Assembly (NCBI GenBank): GCA_947455145.1
Contig: CANGME010000016.1
Coordinates: forward strand, 1 to 64,000
Direction of reading: 5' to 3'
DNA length: 64,000 nucleotides
Origin: Comamonadaceae bacterium
GTDB lineage: Bacteria > Pseudomonadota > Gammaproteobacteria > Burkholderiales > Burkholderiaceae_C
Below are positions 18 through 34,525 of this stretch, piece by piece; positions within the stretch are counted from its first letter, which is position 1, and each line of letters opens with the position of its first letter. The notes beneath the pieces were generated by a model. The model was not told the DNA's origin, made no database searches, and was given only the letters and a program-made list of their open reading frames with translations. A program made the position numbers and the translations under genes.

Positions 18-674
18 TTATTTGTTAGCGCGGGTACCGACGACTTCGATTTCAACGCGACGGTTCTTGGCACGGCCTGCGTCGGTCTTGTTGTCAGCCA
101 CTGGCTGGCTTTCGCCTTTGCCTTCTGTGTAAACGCGATTTTTCTCGATGCCTTTAGACACCAAGTAAGCCTTGACAGCTTCTGAGCGCTTGACCGACAG
201 CTTCTGGTTATATGCATCAGTACCGATCGCATCTGTGTGACCCACAGCGATGATAACTTCCAGGTTGATAGCCTTGACCTTACCGGCCAGGTCGTCCAAC
301 TTGGCTTTGCCTTCTGGCTTGAGCACGGACTTGTTGAAGTCAAAGAAAGCGTCTGCAGCGTAAGTCACTTTGGTGGCTGCAGGTGGCTGGGGTGCAGGTG
401 CAGGGGCAGCTGCCTTAGGTGCAGGAGCAGGAGCAGCAACTGGTGCTGGTGCTGGTGCTGGTGCTGGCATCGCTTTAGGTGCAGGTGCAATAGCACCGTC
501 GCAACCCTGAACAGCCGTAGCAGGCGTCCAGCTAGCATCACGCCAGCACTCGCCAGCTGTATTCTTCCAAACTTCGCCACCAGCATTACGCCAGTTATCA
601 ACAACCTGTGCACCAGCGGTGGTAGCGATAGTTGCGACTGCGATCAACATTGCCACTTTGTTTAACTTCTTCAT
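18..674 (-). CDS. OmpA-family outer-membrane/peptidoglycan-binding protein
   Basis: The 218-residue product starts with a Sec signal peptide (residues 1-22, ending TTAGA before a Gln). A short region containing NWRNAGGEVWKN and two Cys-containing segments follows, then a low-complexity Ala-Pro linker (about residues 63-100), then an OmpA C-terminal domain (about 105-215) with GHTDAIGTDAYN and KNRRVEIEV, which in this family bind peptidoglycan diaminopimelate. There is no N-terminal beta-barrel of classical OmpA length, so it probably tethers the envelope to peptidoglycan rather than forming a pore. The Ala-Pro linker is encoded by a run of GGTGCT-type hexamers (on the given strand) that could change length by slippage. 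It is divergent from gyrA across about 243 bp that must hold both promoters. Confidence 0.88.
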   Translation of the reverse strand: MKKLNKVAMLIAVATIATTAGAQVVDNWRNAGGEVWKNTAGECWRDASWTPATAVQGCDGAIAPAPKAMPAPAPAPAPVAAPAPAPKAAAPAPAPQPPAATKVTYAADAFFDFNKSVLKPEGKAKLDDLAGKVKAINLEVIIAVGHTDAIGTDAYNQKLSVKRSEAVKAYLVSKGIEKNRVYTEGKGESQPVADNKTDAGRAKNRRVEIEVVGTRANK

Positions 675-27836: not shown

Positions 27837-28976
27837 ATGCCCACGCCCACCCCACTGATGCCTGCCAACCGCATGGAGCGCATTGCGCGGGCACGGCAAC
27901 TAGCCCTGGTTGAGGCGCCCTGCGCCACCAACGGCTTGGTCGAACCCTGGATTGAACAATCTTGGCAGCGCTGTTTAAGCCAAGGGCAGCGACCTGAGCA
28001 CCGGCTCAATTTTGAAGCCGCTTCGTCACAGCGCATGCGGCAAACCACGGAGAGCAACCTCATCCTGATTCAGGCCGCCAGCCCGATCTTGAAGCAGCTC
28101 GGCAGCGCTCTGGCCGACACACGCTACTTCGCCATATTGACCAACCAAGACGGCGTGGTGGTGGACGTGGATGGCCCCATTGACCGCAGTGACCGCCGGG
28201 TCGATCTCATCACCCGGATTGGCACTGATCTGTCTGAGCAAAGTGTCGGCACCACCGCCATAGGCGCTGCCCTGCAATTGCAGCAGCCGGTGTGGCTGCA
28301 CAGGGGAGAACATTTCTTCAACGACACGTCCGCCTATAGTTGCGCGGGTGCGCCTTTGTTTGGCCCAGATGGCCGCTACGTAGGCATGCTAGATTTAACT
28401 GGAGTGGAGGCAACCGAGCGCCCCGAGTTGCGCCACTTGGTCGCACACACAGCCCGCAACATTGAAAACGCGCTGGTGCTGCAACGCCCGCACACGCTTC
28501 TATTGCGTTTGAACTGGCCGGGCATGCCCATGGGCGATGAAGGTGACGGACTGATCGGGCTGGACGCCGATGGCTTTGTTACCGCAGCCAATCAGGCCGC
28601 TAGGCAAATGCTCCCACCCCTTGCATCACCCGCCGCGACTCATCACAGCCGAGACTTGTTTGCGCTGCCCAGTGACCTCTTGTTTGATGCAGCGCGACAT
28701 CAAAGTGAGCGGCTTGACGCGCCACTATGGTCAGGCCTGCGCTTGCAAGTGCAAGCTCGTATGGCAAACCGTCTTCACGAGGCCACCACCACCACTTGGC
28801 CTGCATTCAAATCAAGCCCGCCAGTAGCCCACCGAGTCCCTCTAAAAGACGTGGAGACGGCCATGATCTTGAAGGCCGTCGAAGAGGCCCGAGGCAACGT
28901 AGCCGAGGCTGCTATGACACTGGGCATCAGCCGAGCCACGGTGTACCGAAAACTGGGTGGTGGCAGGGTGCGTTGA
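27837..28976 (+). CDS. GAF-domain/FIS-type regulator divergent from the AOR operon
   Basis: A 379-residue regulator resembling AcoR. The N-terminal region has the family signature EPWIEQSWQRCLSQGQRPEH. A GAF-like sensor domain follows (about 80-220; FAILTNQDGVVVDVDGPIDR, GTDLSEQSVGTTAIGAAL, SCAGAPLFGPDGRYVGMLDL). The C-terminal FIS helix-turn-helix is ILKAVEEARGNVAEAAMTLG then ISRATVYRKL. The AAA+ sigma-54 activation domain that normally lies between GAF and FIS in AcoR-like proteins is absent, so it should work with sigma-70 RNA polymerase. The ATG at 27837 is preferred (ATG 27873 possible); the open frame upstream is antisense to the ferredoxin gene. It probably senses an aldehyde or related metabolite and controls the AOR operon. 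Confidence 0.85.
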   Translation: MPTPTPLMPANRMERIARARQLALVEAPCATNGLVEPWIEQSWQRCLSQGQRPEHRLNFEAASSQRMRQTTESNLILIQAASPILKQLGSALADTRYFAILTNQDGVVVDVDGPIDRSDRRVDLITRIGTDLSEQSVGTTAIGAALQLQQPVWLHRGEHFFNDTSAYSCAGAPLFGPDGRYVGMLDLTGVEATERPELRHLVAHTARNIENALVLQRPHTLLLRLNWPGMPMGDEGDGLIGLDADGFVTAANQAARQMLPPLASPAATHHSRDLFALPSDLLFDAARHQSERLDAPLWSGLRLQVQARMANRLHEATTTTWPAFKSSPPVAHRVPLKDVETAMILKAVEEARGNVAEAAMTLGISRATVYRKLGGGRVR

Positions 28977-29053
28977 TTAATATCTGACCTGTTACAGAAA
29001 ACAGAGCTGTTTTCGCACATAGACAAAAGAGGCTAGGCCTTTTTTCCATGCAG

Positions 29054-29141
29054 AAAAGACGAAAGCCGCATATAGCGGCTTTCCATTTGGTGCATCTTTC
29101 AGCTTGTTAGCGTTCAGAGCGCATATCCCAATCGATAAGTG
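29054..29141 (-). ncRNA. tracrRNA of the type II-C CRISPR system
   Basis: The complementary strand carries an anti-repeat (about 29106-29143): TCAGAGC, then CATATCCCAATCGA on the given strand, matches the CRISPR repeat at 21 of 22 core positions and diverges at the ends. Read leftward it continues into AAGCTGAAAGATGCACC, much like the segment after the anti-repeat in Neisseria tracrRNA. It then ends in a terminator with a 9-bp stem (GAAAGCCGC / GCGGCTTTC) and a T-rich tail ending near 29054. An extended -10 (TGCTACTAT, 29147-29155 on the complementary strand) puts the 5' end near 29140. The RNA would pair with crRNA repeats, recruit RNase III and load Cas9. Confidence 0.88.
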
Positions 29142-29197
29142 CTTGAATAGTAGCACGTATCAAGGTACAAACGGGGCTTACAAAAAGGGAGGCAAGC

Positions 29198-32100
29198 ATG
29201 CCAGCAATGCGGTATCGACTCGCGCTAGATTTGGGTTCAACTTCGCTAGGCTGGGCCATGGTTCGGCTCTCAGCTGAAAACCTGCCTTGCGCAATCATCA
29301 AAGCAGGGGTTCGCATCTTTTCAGATGGGCGCAACCCCAAAGACGGCTCATCACTGGCCGTCACCCGGCGCGATGCGCGCTCCATGCGCCGCCGCCGAGA
29401 CCGACTGCTCAAACGCAAGGCGCGGATGATGCGATCGCTCGTTGAGCACCGTTTCTTTTCATCCGAAGAAGCTGAACGAAAAACACTGCTAACGCTGAAC
29501 CCTTACACCCTGCGTGCCAAGGGGCTGGATGAAGCGCTTACGCCCGCAGAATTTGGTCGCACCCTATTTCACATCAACCAGCGGCGCGGCTTCAAAAGTA
29601 ACCGCAAGACGGATAAAGCCGACAACGACAGTGGCGCACTGAAAACCGCCATCAGTAAACTGCGCGAAACCCTCAAAACAGAGAACTGCCGCACGGTGGG
29701 CGAATGGCTGCACAAGCGCGATGCAGCCGACCTGACCGTCAGGGCTCGCTATCGTCAAAACAAAGTCATCAAAGACGATGGCAAAACCCGCATCGACAAA
29801 AGCTACGACCTGTACATTGACCGAGCCATGATCGAGGACGAGTTTGATGCGCTATGGCGCAAGCAGGCCGAGTTAAATCCCGCACTGTTCACCGAAGCCG
29901 CTCGCGCCGATTTGAGAGATGTGTTGTTGCATCAACGCCCCCTCAAACCCGTCAAACCAGGGCGCTGCACCTTCATGCCGGATGAAGAACGCGCCCCCTT
30001 GGCATTGCCCAGCACACAGCGCTTCCGCATGTACCAGGAGGTCAACAATCTGCGCATCCTGCGCCCAGGCTTAAAAGAGGAAGCGTTGACGCGGCAACAA
30101 CGTGATGACTTGATCCAAGCCTTGGAGTCCAACAGCAAGCGCACGTTCACGCAAATCAAGACATTACTCAAAACAGGAGGGGCCGTTCAGTTCAACTTTG
30201 AAGACCCGAAACGGCAAGAACTCAAAGGCAACGTCACCAGCGCCATCCTGAGCAACGCCAAGCACTTTGGTGCTGAGTGGTTTGAGTTTGATGAAACTAA
30301 ACAGGACGAGATAGTGCTGCAACTCGTCAAGGAAGAAAACGAAGCCAAACTCGTGCGCTGGCTGCAAGAAAACACAGGCGTTGATGAATCGCATGCCGAG
30401 GCCATCGCCAATACAGGCCTGCCAGAAGGCTACGGTAGCTTGTGCGCCAAGGCTTTGGCCCGCATCCTGCCAGAGCTGCGCAGAGATGTCGTGACCTACG
30501 ACAAGGCCGTGCAAGCAGCGGGCTTTGATCACCACAGCAACATCAGCCCTGCCGCGACAGGTGAAATATTGGCAGAGCTGCCCTACTACGGCCAGCCTTT
30601 GCAACGCCACGTTGGCTTTGGAACGAACGATCCGAAGGACGGCGATGAAAAACGCTACGGCAAGATCGCCAACCCCACAGTGCACATTGGTCTGAATCAG
30701 GTACGGCTGGTGGTCAATGCGTTGATCAAGCGCTACGGCCACCCCAGTGAAGTGATCGTCGAGGTGGCGCGCGACCTCAAACAAAGCAAAGATCAACGAG
30801 AAGACGAAAACAAACGGCAGGCTGAAAATCAACGCAGAAATATCCGCTTACGGGCTGACGTGGCAGGCACGCTGGGCATCAGCCCGGAGCGGGTCAGGAT
30901 TGCGGATATTCAGAAAATGATTCTGTGGGAAGAATTGAGCTTTGATCCCGCTGACCGCCGCTGCCCCTACTCTGGCGTCCAAATCAGTGCCACTATGCTG
31001 CTCAGTGAACAGGTTGAAATCGAACACATCCTCCCGTTTTCAGAAACACTGGACGATAGCCTGAACAACAAAACTGTCGCCCTGCGGCAAGCCAATCGTG
31101 TCAAAGGCAACCGCACGCCGTGGGCCGCATTTGGCGAGCAAACGGCAGCCGGTTTTGTCTATGCCGACATGCTGGCCCGCGCCGAACAGATGCCCAAAGC
31201 CAAACGCTATCGTTTTGGGGAAGACGCCATGAAGCAATGGCTCAGGGACGATGCAGGCTTCTTGCCGCGCGCACTCAACGACACCCGCCATATGAGCAAG
31301 GTGGCACGCGAGTACATGAGCTTGATCTGCCCGCAAAACACCCGCGTCATCCCTGGCCGCATGACAGCCATGCTGCGCGCCAAATTTGGTTTGAACGATG
31401 TGCTGGGTGTCGATGGACTCAAAAATCGAAACGACCACCGCCATCATGCAGTGGATGCCTGCGTCATCGCCGTCACCGATCAGGGCCTGCTACAACGCTT
31501 CGCCCGGGCCAGCGCCAGCGCACGGGAGCAGCAGCTCAACCGGTTGGTAGAAACCATGCCTTTGCCATGGGAGAGCTACCGTGATCACGTGCAGCGCGCC
31601 ATAAGCAACATCTGGGTCAGCCACAAACCGGATCACAGCCATGAGGGTGCGATGCACAACGACACGGCTTATGGGCTACTGGGCAATAGTCGCGTCAGCG
31701 TTCACAAAACAGTGGATGGAAAGCGTGAACGGATTGAAGACAACCTCAAGGTCATACAGTTCACCGATGCAAAAGCCACGGCACGACATGGCCTGCTACC
31801 TAACGGCGAACCGCGTCCCTACAAAGGTTACAAGGGTGACAGCAACTATTGCATTGAAATTATTCGCAATGAGAAAGGGAAATGGGAGGGTGAAGTCATT
31901 TCCACTTTTGAAGCGTATCAACTTGTGCGCACGCATGGGGTGGCGCGGTTGAGGCATCCGAATTTGAGTGTGAACGGGAAGCCATTGGTGATGAGGTTGA
32001 TTTTGGATGATTCAGTCCGCCTAGAAATCGACGGGTCACTACGCACAATGCGCGTCGCGACACTGAGCGGAAATGGGCAAGTGTTCATGGCTGATGCGCA

Positions 32101-32248
32101 AGAGGCCAATGTCGATTCACGAAACCGCGACAAAAGTGATCTGTTCACTTACGTTTCAAAGATGGCCGGTTCGTTTCAAAAATCTCAAGCCCGCCGCATC
32201 ACCATCTCCCCCATCGGCGAACTCCACGACCCCGGTTTTCGGGCCTAA
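29198..32248 (+). CDS. cas9: Type II-C CRISPR RNA-guided endonuclease Cas9
   Basis: A compact 1016-residue Cas9. RuvC-I is LALDLGSTSLGWA with Asp11. The arginine-rich bridge helix (RRDARSMRRRRDRLLKRKAR) follows, then the REC region including FHINQRRGFKSNRK. RuvC-II is VIVEVARDL with Glu522. The HNH nuclease has CPYSGVQI and EIEHILPFS with His610 and NNKTVALRQANRVKGN. RuvC-III is NDHRHHAVDACVIA with His750 and Asp753. The C-terminal third should read the PAM. All catalytic residues are present, so it should be active. The length and a cas9-cas1-cas2 operon with no csn2 or cas4 fit subtype II-C, as seen in Acidovorax and Alicycliphilus. GGGAGG lies just before the ATG. Confidence 0.97.
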   Translation: MPAMRYRLALDLGSTSLGWAMVRLSAENLPCAIIKAGVRIFSDGRNPKDGSSLAVTRRDARSMRRRRDRLLKRKARMMRSLVEHRFFSSEEAERKTLLTLNPYTLRAKGLDEALTPAEFGRTLFHINQRRGFKSNRKTDKADNDSGALKTAISKLRETLKTENCRTVGEWLHKRDAADLTVRARYRQNKVIKDDGKTRIDKSYDLYIDRAMIEDEFDALWRKQAELNPALFTEAARADLRDVLLHQRPLKPVKPGRCTFMPDEERAPLALPSTQRFRMYQEVNNLRILRPGLKEEALTRQQRDDLIQALESNSKRTFTQIKTLLKTGGAVQFNFEDPKRQELKGNVTSAILSNAKHFGAEWFEFDETKQDEIVLQLVKEENEAKLVRWLQENTGVDESHAEAIANTGLPEGYGSLCAKALARILPELRRDVVTYDKAVQAAGFDHHSNISPAATGEILAELPYYGQPLQRHVGFGTNDPKDGDEKRYGKIANPTVHIGLNQVRLVVNALIKRYGHPSEVIVEVARDLKQSKDQREDENKRQAENQRRNIRLRADVAGTLGISPERVRIADIQKMILWEELSFDPADRRCPYSGVQISATMLLSEQVEIEHILPFSETLDDSLNNKTVALRQANRVKGNRTPWAAFGEQTAAGFVYADMLARAEQMPKAKRYRFGEDAMKQWLRDDAGFLPRALNDTRHMSKVAREYMSLICPQNTRVIPGRMTAMLRAKFGLNDVLGVDGLKNRNDHRHHAVDACVIAVTDQGLLQRFARASASAREQQLNRLVETMPLPWESYRDHVQRAISNIWVSHKPDHSHEGAMHNDTAYGLLGNSRVSVHKTVDGKRERIEDNLKVIQFTDAKATARHGLLPNGEPRPYKGYKGDSNYCIEIIRNEKGKWEGEVISTFEAYQLVRTHGVARLRHPNLSVNGKPLVMRLILDDSVRLEIDGSLRTMRVATLSGNGQVFMADAQEANVDSRNRDKSDLFTYVSKMAGSFQKSQARRITISPIGELHDPGFRA

Positions 32249-32253
32249 CGCGA

Positions 32254-33183
32254 ATGATTGGTCGCATCGTTGAAGTGGCCGACGACAGGCGCCACCTGTT
32301 TATACATCGCGGCTTCATGGTGGTGCAAGACACTGAGGGCGAACGCAAGGAACTGGGCCAAGTACCGCTGGACGACATTGGGGCCGTCATCGCCAACGCG
32401 CACGGCCTGAGTTACACCAACAACCTGCTGGTGGCCCTGGCCGAACGCGGCGCGCCTTTTGTACTGTGCGCAGCCAACCACAATGCCGTGGGCATGCTGC
32501 TATCACTGGATGGCCATCACCATCAAGGCAAACGTTTTGATGCCCAACTGGAAGCCACCAAGCCGACAACCAAACGGCTTTGGGCCGAAGTCGTGCGGGC
32601 CAAACTGGAGCAGCAAGCCGCAGCGCTGGCGGCCATGGGCAGCCCCACTGCCCCACTCGCTGCATTGGTCAGCAAAGTACGCTCCGGTGACCCCGACAAC
32701 ATGGAAGCCCAAGGCGCACGGCGCTATTGGGGCTTGCTGTTTGGCGACGCCTTCCGGCGCGATCAGGATGCGGGTGGCCTCAATGCCATGCTCAACTATG
32801 GCTACACCGTGCTGCGTGCCACCACAGCGCGCGCCGTGGTGGCGGCGGGCCTGCACCCCACGCTCGGCCTGCACCACAGCAACGACAGCAACCCGATGCG
32901 TCTGGTGGATGATTTGATGGAGCCTTTTCGCCCCGTCATTGATCTCAAAGTGTGGCAGCTACGGCGCAACGGCGAGACTGACATCACACCCGAGACCAAA
33001 CGCGCTTTGGTTCGCACGCTGTACGACGACATGCAAACCGACGCGGGTGCCACACCCGTCATGGTGTGTGTCCAAAAACTGGCCACCTCGCTCGCGCAGG
33101 TTTATCTAGGCGAGCGCGAAAAACTGGATTTGCCACTGCCCGGCTTGCCACTGGCGCTGGCAGCAGCGCTCAACGATGAATAG
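32254..33183 (+). CDS. cas1: CRISPR-associated endonuclease Cas1 (type II)
   Basis: Cas1 (309 residues) is the integrase subunit that inserts new spacers with Cas2. The N-terminal beta domain starts MIGRIVEVADDRRHLFIHRG. The catalytic helical domain has Glu151 in NMEAQGARRYW, His208 in TLGLHHSNDSNP and Glu223 in DLMEPFRPVIDL, the expected metal ligands. It starts 5 bp after cas9 and is surely co-transcribed with it. Confidence 0.97.
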   Translation: MIGRIVEVADDRRHLFIHRGFMVVQDTEGERKELGQVPLDDIGAVIANAHGLSYTNNLLVALAERGAPFVLCAANHNAVGMLLSLDGHHHQGKRFDAQLEATKPTTKRLWAEVVRAKLEQQAAALAAMGSPTAPLAALVSKVRSGDPDNMEAQGARRYWGLLFGDAFRRDQDAGGLNAMLNYGYTVLRATTARAVVAAGLHPTLGLHHSNDSNPMRLVDDLMEPFRPVIDLKVWQLRRNGETDITPETKRALVRTLYDDMQTDAGATPVMVCVQKLATSLAQVYLGEREKLDLPLPGLPLALAAALNDE

Positions 33184-33198
33184 ACCCGTGGATCACTC

Positions 33199-33525
33199 AT
33201 GTTGTCAGGCTACAGACTGATGTGGGTTGTCGTGATGTTTGATCTGCCGGTGATCGAGAAAGTCGAGCGCAAAGCAGCCACGGCATTCCGTAACTCGCTA
33301 CTGGACATGGGATTTGCGATGTCGCAATTCTCGGTTTACATGCGTTTTTGCACCAGTCAGGCGCAACTCGACACTTACGGCAAACGCGTCGAAGACGCCT
33401 TGCCAGAAGGCGGCAAAGTGAATATTCTTCAATTCACCGACAAACAGTACGAACGCATCATCTCGTTCCACGGCAAAGCCAAGCTGCCCGCGAATAAAAC
33501 GCCAGACCAGTTTGATCTTTTCTAA
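33199..33525 (+). CDS. cas2: CRISPR-associated endoribonuclease-fold protein Cas2
   Basis: Cas2 (108 residues) forms the dimer core of the Cas1-Cas2 spacer integration complex. It has the ferredoxin-like first strand MWVVVMFDLPV with the conserved Asp, then KAATAFRNSLLDMGFAMSQFSVYMR, and ends in the family-typical DQFDLF. It is the last gene of the cas operon, converging on the CRISPR array, which is transcribed from the other strand. Confidence 0.96.
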   Translation: MLSGYRLMWVVVMFDLPVIEKVERKAATAFRNSLLDMGFAMSQFSVYMRFCTSQAQLDTYGKRVEDALPEGGKVNILQFTDKQYERIISFHGKAKLPANKTPDQFDLF

Positions 33526-33551: not shown

Positions 33552-33584
33552 AAAACGAAAAACCCCTTGACGAATCAAGGGGTT
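33552..33584 (-). terminator. Intrinsic terminator at the leader-distal end of the CRISPR array
   Basis: A perfect 10-bp stem (AACCCCTTGA / TCAAGGGGTT) with a CGAA/TTCG tetraloop. Only on the leftward strand is it followed by T-rich sequence (TTTCGTTTTC). It ends 11 bp from the first repeat and would stop pre-crRNA transcribed leftward before it enters cas2. Confidence 0.85.
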
Positions 33585-33595
33585 ATCGTAGACCT

Positions 33596-34489
33596 AGTCT
33601 AGTCGATTGGGATATGAGCTCTGACCGGAACCCATACGCTGCGGCCTTGACAATGGGTGATAGTCTAGTCGATTGGGATATGAGCTCTGACCGGAACGGC
33701 ATCACCCACGCATTTATGCATTGCGTCAGTCTAGTCGATTGGGATATGAGCTCTGACCGGAACTGGAACTCGATGCAAACGTGGTTATTGATGAGTCTAG
33801 TCGATTGGGATATGAGCTCTGACCGGAACGCGTCTGCTCGCACTAATTGCATGCTCCAGAGTCTAGTCGATTGGGATATGAGCTCTGACCGGAACGATAC
33901 GGTTGTATATACAAAAGCATTTGCAAGTCTAGTCGATTGGGATATGAGCTCTGACCGGAACGGCGGGCGGTCTGTTGACACGCAATTTAAAAGTCTAGTC
34001 GATTGGGATATGAGCTCTGACCGGAACGGGAACATCGCCCGGGATGCAGAAGTAAGAAGTCTAGTCGATTGGGATATGAGCTCTGACCGGAACTAGGTGC
34101 AGCTTGGCATCAACCAGGCTGACAGTCTAGTCGATTGGGATATGAGCTCTGACCGGAACCATTTGTGTTGGCTGGATTCTTGTACATTGAGTCTAGTCGA
34201 TTGGGATATGAGCTCTGACCGGAACCAACCATTGAACAGTATTCGTTTTCTTGGCAGTCTAGTCGATTGGGATATGAGCTCTGACCGGAACGACTCCCAT
34301 GTCGTCCATCGTGGCGGCTTCAGTCTAGTCGATTGGGATATGAGCTCTGACCGGAACGCGCAGCTTGGCCGGGACATCCGCCACGTGAGTCTAGTCGATT
34401 GGGATATGAGCTCTGACCGGAACGATCGCCTTCGTGCTGCTGCTGATCCTTCTAGTCTAGTCGATTGGGATATGAGCTCTGACCGGAAC
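33596..34489 (-). CRISPR. CRISPR array, 14 identical 36-nt repeats and 13 spacers of 30 nt
   Basis: Repeats start at 33596 and recur every 66 nt to 34454. On the given strand each begins AGTCTAGTCGATTGGG and ends AGCTCTGACCGGAAC; all 14 look identical, with no degenerate end repeat. Every spacer is exactly 30 nt and all differ. The crRNA strand is inferred to be the leftward one: only that strand complements the tracrRNA anti-repeat, and the intrinsic terminator lies at the left end. On that strand the repeat begins GTTCCGGTCAGAGC and ends CGACTAGACT, whose last six bases could act as a -10 box, as in Neisseria repeats. The 66-nt period makes false open frames through the array. Confidence 0.98.
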
Positions 34490-34525
34490 GTGTAATGGGG
34501 GTGGCCGGAGCCACCCCCATTACAC
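34490..34525. repeat. Perfect 36-nt palindrome abutting the upstream end of the CRISPR array
   Basis: The arms GTGTAATGGGGGTGGC and GCCACCCCCATTACAC (16 bp, perfect) enclose CGGA and start at the base after the last repeat. A second small hairpin (CCGCGC-ACA-GCGCGG, 34527-34541) follows. Neither has a good T tract on the leftward strand; the small one has TTGTTT on the rightward strand. Together they fill most of the 70 bp between the array and tupA, where a leader would be expected. Confidence 0.85.

Follow-up and report, generated by a model that had tools for sequence, protein, structure and literature searches.

The gap ahead of cas9 in the window, the whole stretch of 64,000 nucleotides of a Comamonadaceae bacterium analysed here, almost certainly holds the tracrRNA gene of a type II-C CRISPR-Cas9 system, lying on the minus strand, divergent from cas9 and directed leftward. 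This reading is supported by an anti-repeat unique in the genome, by a position, -10 element, scaffold and terminator kept among relatives and by covariation between repeat and anti-repeat. The unique complementarity, the kept anatomy and the covariation are all shown by computation, and we infer from the sequence that the gene is transcribed with about the start site and ends given below and that its RNA is bound by Cas9 and processed by RNase III. The gene completes the parts list of a compact Cas9 of 1016 aa. It is real and ordinary, a tracrRNA in its plain state without a built-in guide, and the interest above routine annotation lies in a lead at the level of the family, probable natural guides in relatives, which the window itself does not carry.

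The CRISPR-Cas9 Locus and Its tracrRNA Gene

As the sequence-only reading had stated, a gap of 221 bp (28977-29197) precedes cas9, between reading frames ending at 28976 and starting at 29198. The features of the gap and of the adjoining locus are the following.

29054-29083, minus strand: intrinsic terminator, a 9-bp stem (29083-29061) with T-rich tail; stem kept in relatives
29084-29101, minus strand: kept scaffold TGAAAGATGCACCAAATG, 3' of the hairpin; longer inserts here in some relatives
29102-29111, minus strand: kept hairpin GCTAACAAGC at the nexus position, folding as GCU-AACA-AGC
29111-29135, minus strand: anti-repeat core, pairing with the array repeat with 2 mismatches in 25
29054-29141, minus strand: predicted tracrRNA of about 88 nt, putative 5' end near 29140-29142 and 3' end in the T tract
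29147-29155, minus strand: extended -10 of the tracrRNA gene, TGCTACTAT; in 23 aligned sequences the T, the A and the final T never vary
29143-29171, plus strand: weak candidate for a cas9 promoter, TTGAAT-17-TACAAA, not better than shuffles
29198-32248, plus strand: cas9, 1016 aa (TIGR01865, E 2.6e-187; PADLOC Cas9)
32254-33183, plus strand: cas1 (TIGR03639, E 1.4e-71)
33199-33525, plus strand: cas2 (TIGR01573, E 9.3e-17)
33558-33584, minus strand: hairpin and T tract directly after the last-transcribed repeat, probable array terminator
33596-34489, minus strand: CRISPR array with 14 identical repeats of 36 nt separated by 13 spacers of 30 nt; crRNA sense deduced from the anti-repeat
34490-34525, minus strand: perfect 16-bp hairpin abutting the first-transcribed repeat (fold z -6.7)

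The order cas9-cas1-cas2 followed by the array, with neither csn2 nor cas4 from cas9 to array, assigns the locus to subtype II-C; all other frames of at least 80 aa in this part overlap the three cas genes or the array. The hairpins at the two array ends fit type II-C as well, and the 16-bp one resembles, by analogy, the guide-sequestering hairpin of an extraneous crRNA, a mechanism outlined in excerpts of PMC12080349. Comparison of the array's spacers with phages gave no match.

All parts that had been proposed for a tracrRNA gene opposite to cas9 were found on the minus strand of the gap, i.e., an anti-repeat, the segment AAGCTGAAAGATGCACC following it, the terminator stem succeeded by GTCTTTTCTG, and the extended -10 in the right place. 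With TGCTACTAT at 29155-29147, the RNA may reasonably be placed to start near 29140-29142 and, ending at 29054, to measure about 87-89 nt, in agreement with the 88 nt predicted earlier. Taken from the window alone, however, neither signal goes beyond chance, as one terminator in 351 bp compares with a mean of 0.4 in shuffles and the -10 reaches p 0.065 against shuffles of its own upstream region. Both are carried by their conservation in relatives. Over the window, no Rfam family reached the gathering score, and around the tracrRNA three matches at E up to 10 were weak and unrelated; such a match defines Rfam families, not the tracrRNA class.

Pairing with the Array Repeat

The inverted match to the array repeat spans 25 nt at 29111-29135 (23 matches, 92%); from this, the minus strand is deduced to carry the array in crRNA sense, the repeat there reading GTTCCGGTCAGAGCTCATATCCCAATCGACTAGACT. 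A longer match at 29104-29135 (32 nt, 84%) is obtained against one repeat copy gaining from its spacer. Beyond the core, a bulge and then three further pairs follow, so that the anti-repeat of the sequence-only reading is present, while the 38 nt given for it overstate its length. By duplexfold, the minus-strand RNA takes up most of the 36-nt repeat in a duplex of -40.8 kcal/mol that contains internal loops; the printed rows of the corresponding window scan held the array's own complement only and do not rank the anti-repeat. When the own genome was searched with a 24-letter anti-repeat pattern allowing up to 3 mismatches, only 29111-29134 on the minus strand and the 14 repeats were found, against 0 matches for the reversed control. 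The 25-nt core would pair with the repeat (36 nt) of crRNAs transcribed from the array's minus strand; Cas9 would hold the GCUAACAAGC hairpin together with the scaffold after it and the terminator hairpin, and the terminator would end the tracrRNA.

One of the two mismatches is a U-C pair without compensation, the sole substitution of its kind at that position among 46 loci; 43 of these match there, L041 and L043 fail by an indel, and the third is the window. The window's repeats carry at this point the letter of L024 and L038, and its anti-repeat the commonest letter of the 46 loci. Together with the window's -10 scoring only p 0.065, this exceptional mismatch could be taken to mean that the gene is a decayed, untranscribed remnant in a silent system whose repeat has drifted. 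Such decay is very improbable, as the 14 repeats are identical, the cas9, cas1 and cas2 reading frames are complete, and scaffold and terminator are like those of relatives. Moreover, a mismatch within a long duplex is common in tracrRNAs.

Conservation and Covariation among Relatives

Relatives were collected by scanning the window's Cas9 against named genomes, giving 59 loci at best-segment identities of 57-81%. L068, whose contig starts inside cas9, was dropped, and the remaining 58 relatives together with the window make up the 59 loci considered below. Not more than 1200 bp ahead of cas9, the minus strand carries CGCTAACAAG in 57 of these 59 loci including the window (56 of the 58 relatives). 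The two loci without it there are L045, where the cas9 N-terminus lies outside the alignment and the start was extrapolated, and L065, which has its core on another contig. In 23 aligned sequences picked from the 58 loci and the window, GCTAACAAG is invariant.

Covariation was assessed in the 46 loci with a core and a known repeat of their own. The 26-nt anti-repeat matches its own repeat at a mean of 22.70 of 26 positions, whereas a permutation that exchanges repeats between loci, and ignores kinship, gives 19.81 (sd 0.19, maximum 20.5 of 2000); L041, L043 and L076, having an indel in the pairing, were scored as poor matches. Matching letters are of at least two kinds at 15 of the 26 positions, with covarying stretches such as CTTGGG in L036, ATCATCGGG in L064 and L079, GATTGAG in L054 and L071 and GATTAAG in L077. 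This tracking of the array repeat is hard to reconcile with a cis-acting inverted repeat or operator instead of an RNA gene, a reading favoured by the element's place within the cas9 upstream region and by the weak cas9 promoter that can be placed over the tracrRNA -10, and practically dismissed since scaffold and terminator are kept past the anti-repeat and the element lies far from cas9 in L076 (383 bp) and on another contig in L065.

For the tracrRNA gene itself, the -10 starts 15-22 nt before the 26-mer and is better than shuffles at p < 0.05 in 33 of 57 loci (median 0.03), the window being among the other 24. A promoter model for cas9, on the other hand, failed against shuffles over 56 loci (none below 0.05). 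The best candidate in the window, TTGAAT at 29143-29148 and TACAAA at 29166-29171 separated by 17 nt, would share 2 bp with the tracrRNA -10 (29147-29152) and is no better than shuffled sequence (p 0.22). The overlap of the two promoter regions, as asserted by the sequence-only reading, is therefore not claimed.

The gene has several variants. Longer, unlike inserts replace the short UGAAAGAU segment after the GCUAACAAGC hairpin in L032, L034, L047, L055, L064, L093, L133 and L134, and a second, partial anti-repeat lies right past the tracrRNA terminator in Pelistega suis (L077:4700-4760). Carriage of this tracrRNA by phages was considered on the strength of three viral contigs and dropped. 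Only one of them has a real tracrRNA: in L113:60-150 (IMG/VR), a complete member of the same family is found less than 100 bp from the start of a contig stretch classed as viral (400 bases read). L112 and L114 share one sequence, apparently a chance match, without anti-repeat or terminator. Plasmid copies were represented just by 33-nt matches in 6 Curtobacterium plasmids, which were set aside.

Probable Natural Guides in Relatives

In seven relatives, a repeat-like segment with a guide upstream of it is present near the tracrRNA or cas9 or as part of a second, stand-alone single-guide RNA gene, and the guide ends match, over 9-13 bases (one with a mismatch), a promoter region belonging to cas9, to the RNA itself or to a neighbouring NYN-domain gene. 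This suggests that these relatives possess type II-C counterparts of tracr-L. On balance, it appears probable that the tracrRNA gene has repeatedly been turned into natural guides that would steer Cas9 to cas-adjacent promoter regions by seeds of 9-13 nt, in a fused, tracr-L-like form (L064, L076 and, degenerate, G838), as a solitary unit (L065) or as a stand-alone gene beside a nuclease-like NYN-domain gene (G714, G841, G844), the last possibly being a self-limiting Cas9 switch over a potentially harmful neighbour and a type II counterpart of CreTA.

Among the 59 loci, the motif GTTCCGG, read in crRNA sense and not more than 1200 bp ahead of cas9, opens a repeat-like segment in L023, L064, L065 and L076; it occurs without such continuation in L052 (both strands) and L078 (other strand). 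In L064, L065 and L076, the 24-nt guide reappears upstream of cas9 with its final 10, 13 and 11 bases, respectively, and shuffled guides were as good at p 0.001 for L064, in 0 of 2000 cases for L065 and at p 0.0005 for L076. The solitary repeat of L023 (score 25 of 26) showed no seed match, which counts against the natural-guide reading. As a control, 24,165 positions upstream of cas9 (450-bp regions from 58 relatives) were each taken for a guide end, and 1.03% proved to have a match of at least 10 nt; only three of these positions precede GTTCCGG, and their matches are 10, 13 and 11 nt (the L023 element is outside the 450-bp range).

In a set of 81 cas9-tracrRNA regions, which contains some genomes twice and lacks L065, direct repeats of at least 9 nt are confined to L064, L076 (and its duplicate record L083) and L063, the latter rejected for low complexity. 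In L064 and L076 the second copy abuts the repeat start. The long tracrRNA-cas9 gaps of L077, L079, L090, L091, L093, L096 and L100 do not contain direct repeats of this length. Inverted matches in L046 (10 nt) and L076 (12 nt) and nine-nt repeats in L133, L138, L139 and L142 were discarded, as they do not abut a repeat start.

In both fused cases (L076:4592-4741 and L064:4790-4928, minus strand), guide and repeat-like segment precede the tracrRNA, and the guide end of 11 and 10 nt, respectively, recurs beside a -10-like sequence between cas9 and the tracrRNA. L076 folds as one RNA made up of guide end, repeat-anti-repeat hairpin and scaffold (z -5.4); for L064, z is -4.6 for a folded part without guide and GTTCCGG. 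Judged by sequence, L064 and L076 would each encode a natural single-guide RNA, and G714, G841 and G844 would do so from a separate gene. In L065, a solitary repeat unit (300-313, minus strand, and 478-490, plus strand) has a 13-nt guide end matching the stretch directly upstream of cas9, while the tracrRNA core of this genome is on another contig (L115). G838 (L129:4480-4760) shows a degenerate repeat, TTTCCGG, between cas9 and the tracrRNA, and its guide end agrees with the cas9 upstream region at 10 of 11 bases, judged by eye and post hoc.

The window lacks GTTCCGG within 1200 bp upstream of cas9. It was rejected as a tracr-L or solitary-guide case, and likewise as a case of a spacer targeting the cas9 promoter region, the longest 3' seed of its 14 guides in 28301-29500 being 7 nt. 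Elsewhere in the window, 4 of the 14 guides have seeds of 9-10 nt, which were taken as chance.

Candidate Stand-Alone Single-Guide RNA Genes

In genome G714 (locus L099), a second tracrRNA scaffold is located 1 kb away from the first and is preceded by a guide, GTTCCGG and a short hairpin; the fold of this stand-alone RNA has a z of -1.95, with 7 of 200 shuffles as good. A search of the genus (17 genomes, 6 with the core) showed G841 and G844 to have two cores as well, and G837, G838 and G652 to have one each. No further doubled core was found in other, overlapping genome lists, where cores occurred in 32 of 52 (only G714 double), 42 of 50, 6 of 100 and 6 of 42 genomes. The putative stand-alone genes are at L116:5190-6320 (equal to G714:C16), L126 and L127.

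In G714, G841 and G844 the RNA adjoins the NYN-domain gene, assigned in G714 to Pfam PF01936 (E 1.2e-7) and PADLOC HEC-09 (E 1.2e-29). By tblastn, this gene was recovered in G841 and G844 at 87-88% identity, in G841 with the first 22 residues in another frame, and was not found in the 8- to 8.5-kb stretches of G837, G838 and G652. Near the start of the NYN frame (L116:5337-6098), a hairpin bears T tracts on both strands, so that a short RNA of its own might be produced between this hairpin and the guide RNA.

The final 9 guide bases appear a second time upstream, at 11 bp ahead of a -10-like sequence belonging to the stand-alone RNA itself, reading TGCGAAGGT in G714, TGTGGAGGT in G841 and TGCGGAGGT in G844. 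At the two positions where the three species differ, guide and target carry the same change; as a rival explanation for this, recombination between the copies may have homogenised them. In G714 the target overlaps, by eye, a possible -35 of the NYN gene. Searching the G714, G841 and G844 genomes with the whole guide at up to 2 mismatches gave no other match.

Target Flanks and Protospacers

The flanks after the targets are GGGTGTA in L064, GGAGATA in L065, AGGGATA in L076, AGAAATT in G714 and in G841, GGAGATT in G844 and GGAAATA in G838, and all seven conform to NGRNRTW. As this pattern was read off the same sites and the Cas9s differ, it is put forward only as a hypothetical PAM. Two array spacers with phage matches allow comparison. 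A spacer of L064 agrees over 28 exact nt with Bordetella phage BPP-1 (E 1e-3; five Bordetella phage records, one with 26 nt), followed by CGGCGACG; this flank, CGGCGAC, has no T at position 6 and no W at 7. The spacer at L033:9417-9446 shares 28 of its 30 bases with Xanthomonas phage Pfeifenkraut, within the primase/helicase gene, the flank being TGCGGTCA; Pseudomonas phage PaMx42 is similar and has the same flank, and the match is similar in several other phages. Here, TGCGGTC has no R at 3 and no W at 7, with the T at 6 fitting, which tells against a strict NGRNRTW and not against natural guides. Common to the seven targets and the two spacer flanks is NGNNR. Three other weak phage records for L064 and one phage match of the L065 array (87%, E 0.7) were ignored; the arrays of L076, L077 and L040 had no match among phages.

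Comparison with Known Systems

Among solved structures, the window's Cas9 is matched best by Cas9 chains, several of which are Neisseria proteins. The tracrRNA presumably resembles the Neisseria-type II-C RNA. Likeness to that type lies in these structure matches, the window's RNA differing in being without an Rfam match.

The same arrangement has been described for Bordetella pseudohinzii in 2015, where, according to excerpts of PMC4624362, a putative tracrRNA with its own predicted promoter and rho-independent terminator is divergent upstream of cas9-cas1-cas2 in a locus reported to be transcriptionally active. Shared with the window are the gene order, the array downstream, the divergent tracrRNA and the small Cas9 (a gene of 3,117 bp versus 3,051 bp); the species is another one, and the likeness is drawn from the description of the arrangement. 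From eight protospacers, the same source proposed 5'-WGR-3' as PAM, with which the GR at positions 2-3 of our target flanks agrees, whereas W at position 1 is seen in 3 of 7. In a catalogue of Cas9 orthologs, guide-RNA position and orientation are stated to vary and to be generally kept within a clade (PMC7606464, in part). Hence, the window's tracrRNA is of an already known kind.

The tracr-L form is, in the relevant part of a 2021 review (PMC8616872), confined to some systems of subtype II-A. Like the tracr-L of Streptococcus pyogenes (II-A; excerpts of PMC8616872 and PMC11417352), L064 and L076 have guide and repeat-like segment upstream of the anti-repeat on the same strand and a 10- or 11-nt match in the cas9-tracrRNA region. 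However, they belong to subtype II-C and are known from sequence alone, and the window is without such an extension. Among the matches listed in searches of the open-licence PubMed Central literature, there was no II-C autoregulator. If true, the existence of natural guides in II-C systems, including a separate single-guide RNA gene whose target co-varies with it across three species, would imply more than one origin of Cas9 self-control and offer a natural test of the shortest seed for Cas9 binding without cutting. With CreTA and the scaRNA of Francisella novicida, as treated in excerpts of PMC9458426, the candidate stand-alone genes share an ectopic degenerate repeat giving rise to a guide RNA, which there represses a gene by partial matching; in G714, G841 and G844, by contrast, a full tracrRNA scaffold comes after the guide, and an NYN-domain gene lies alongside.
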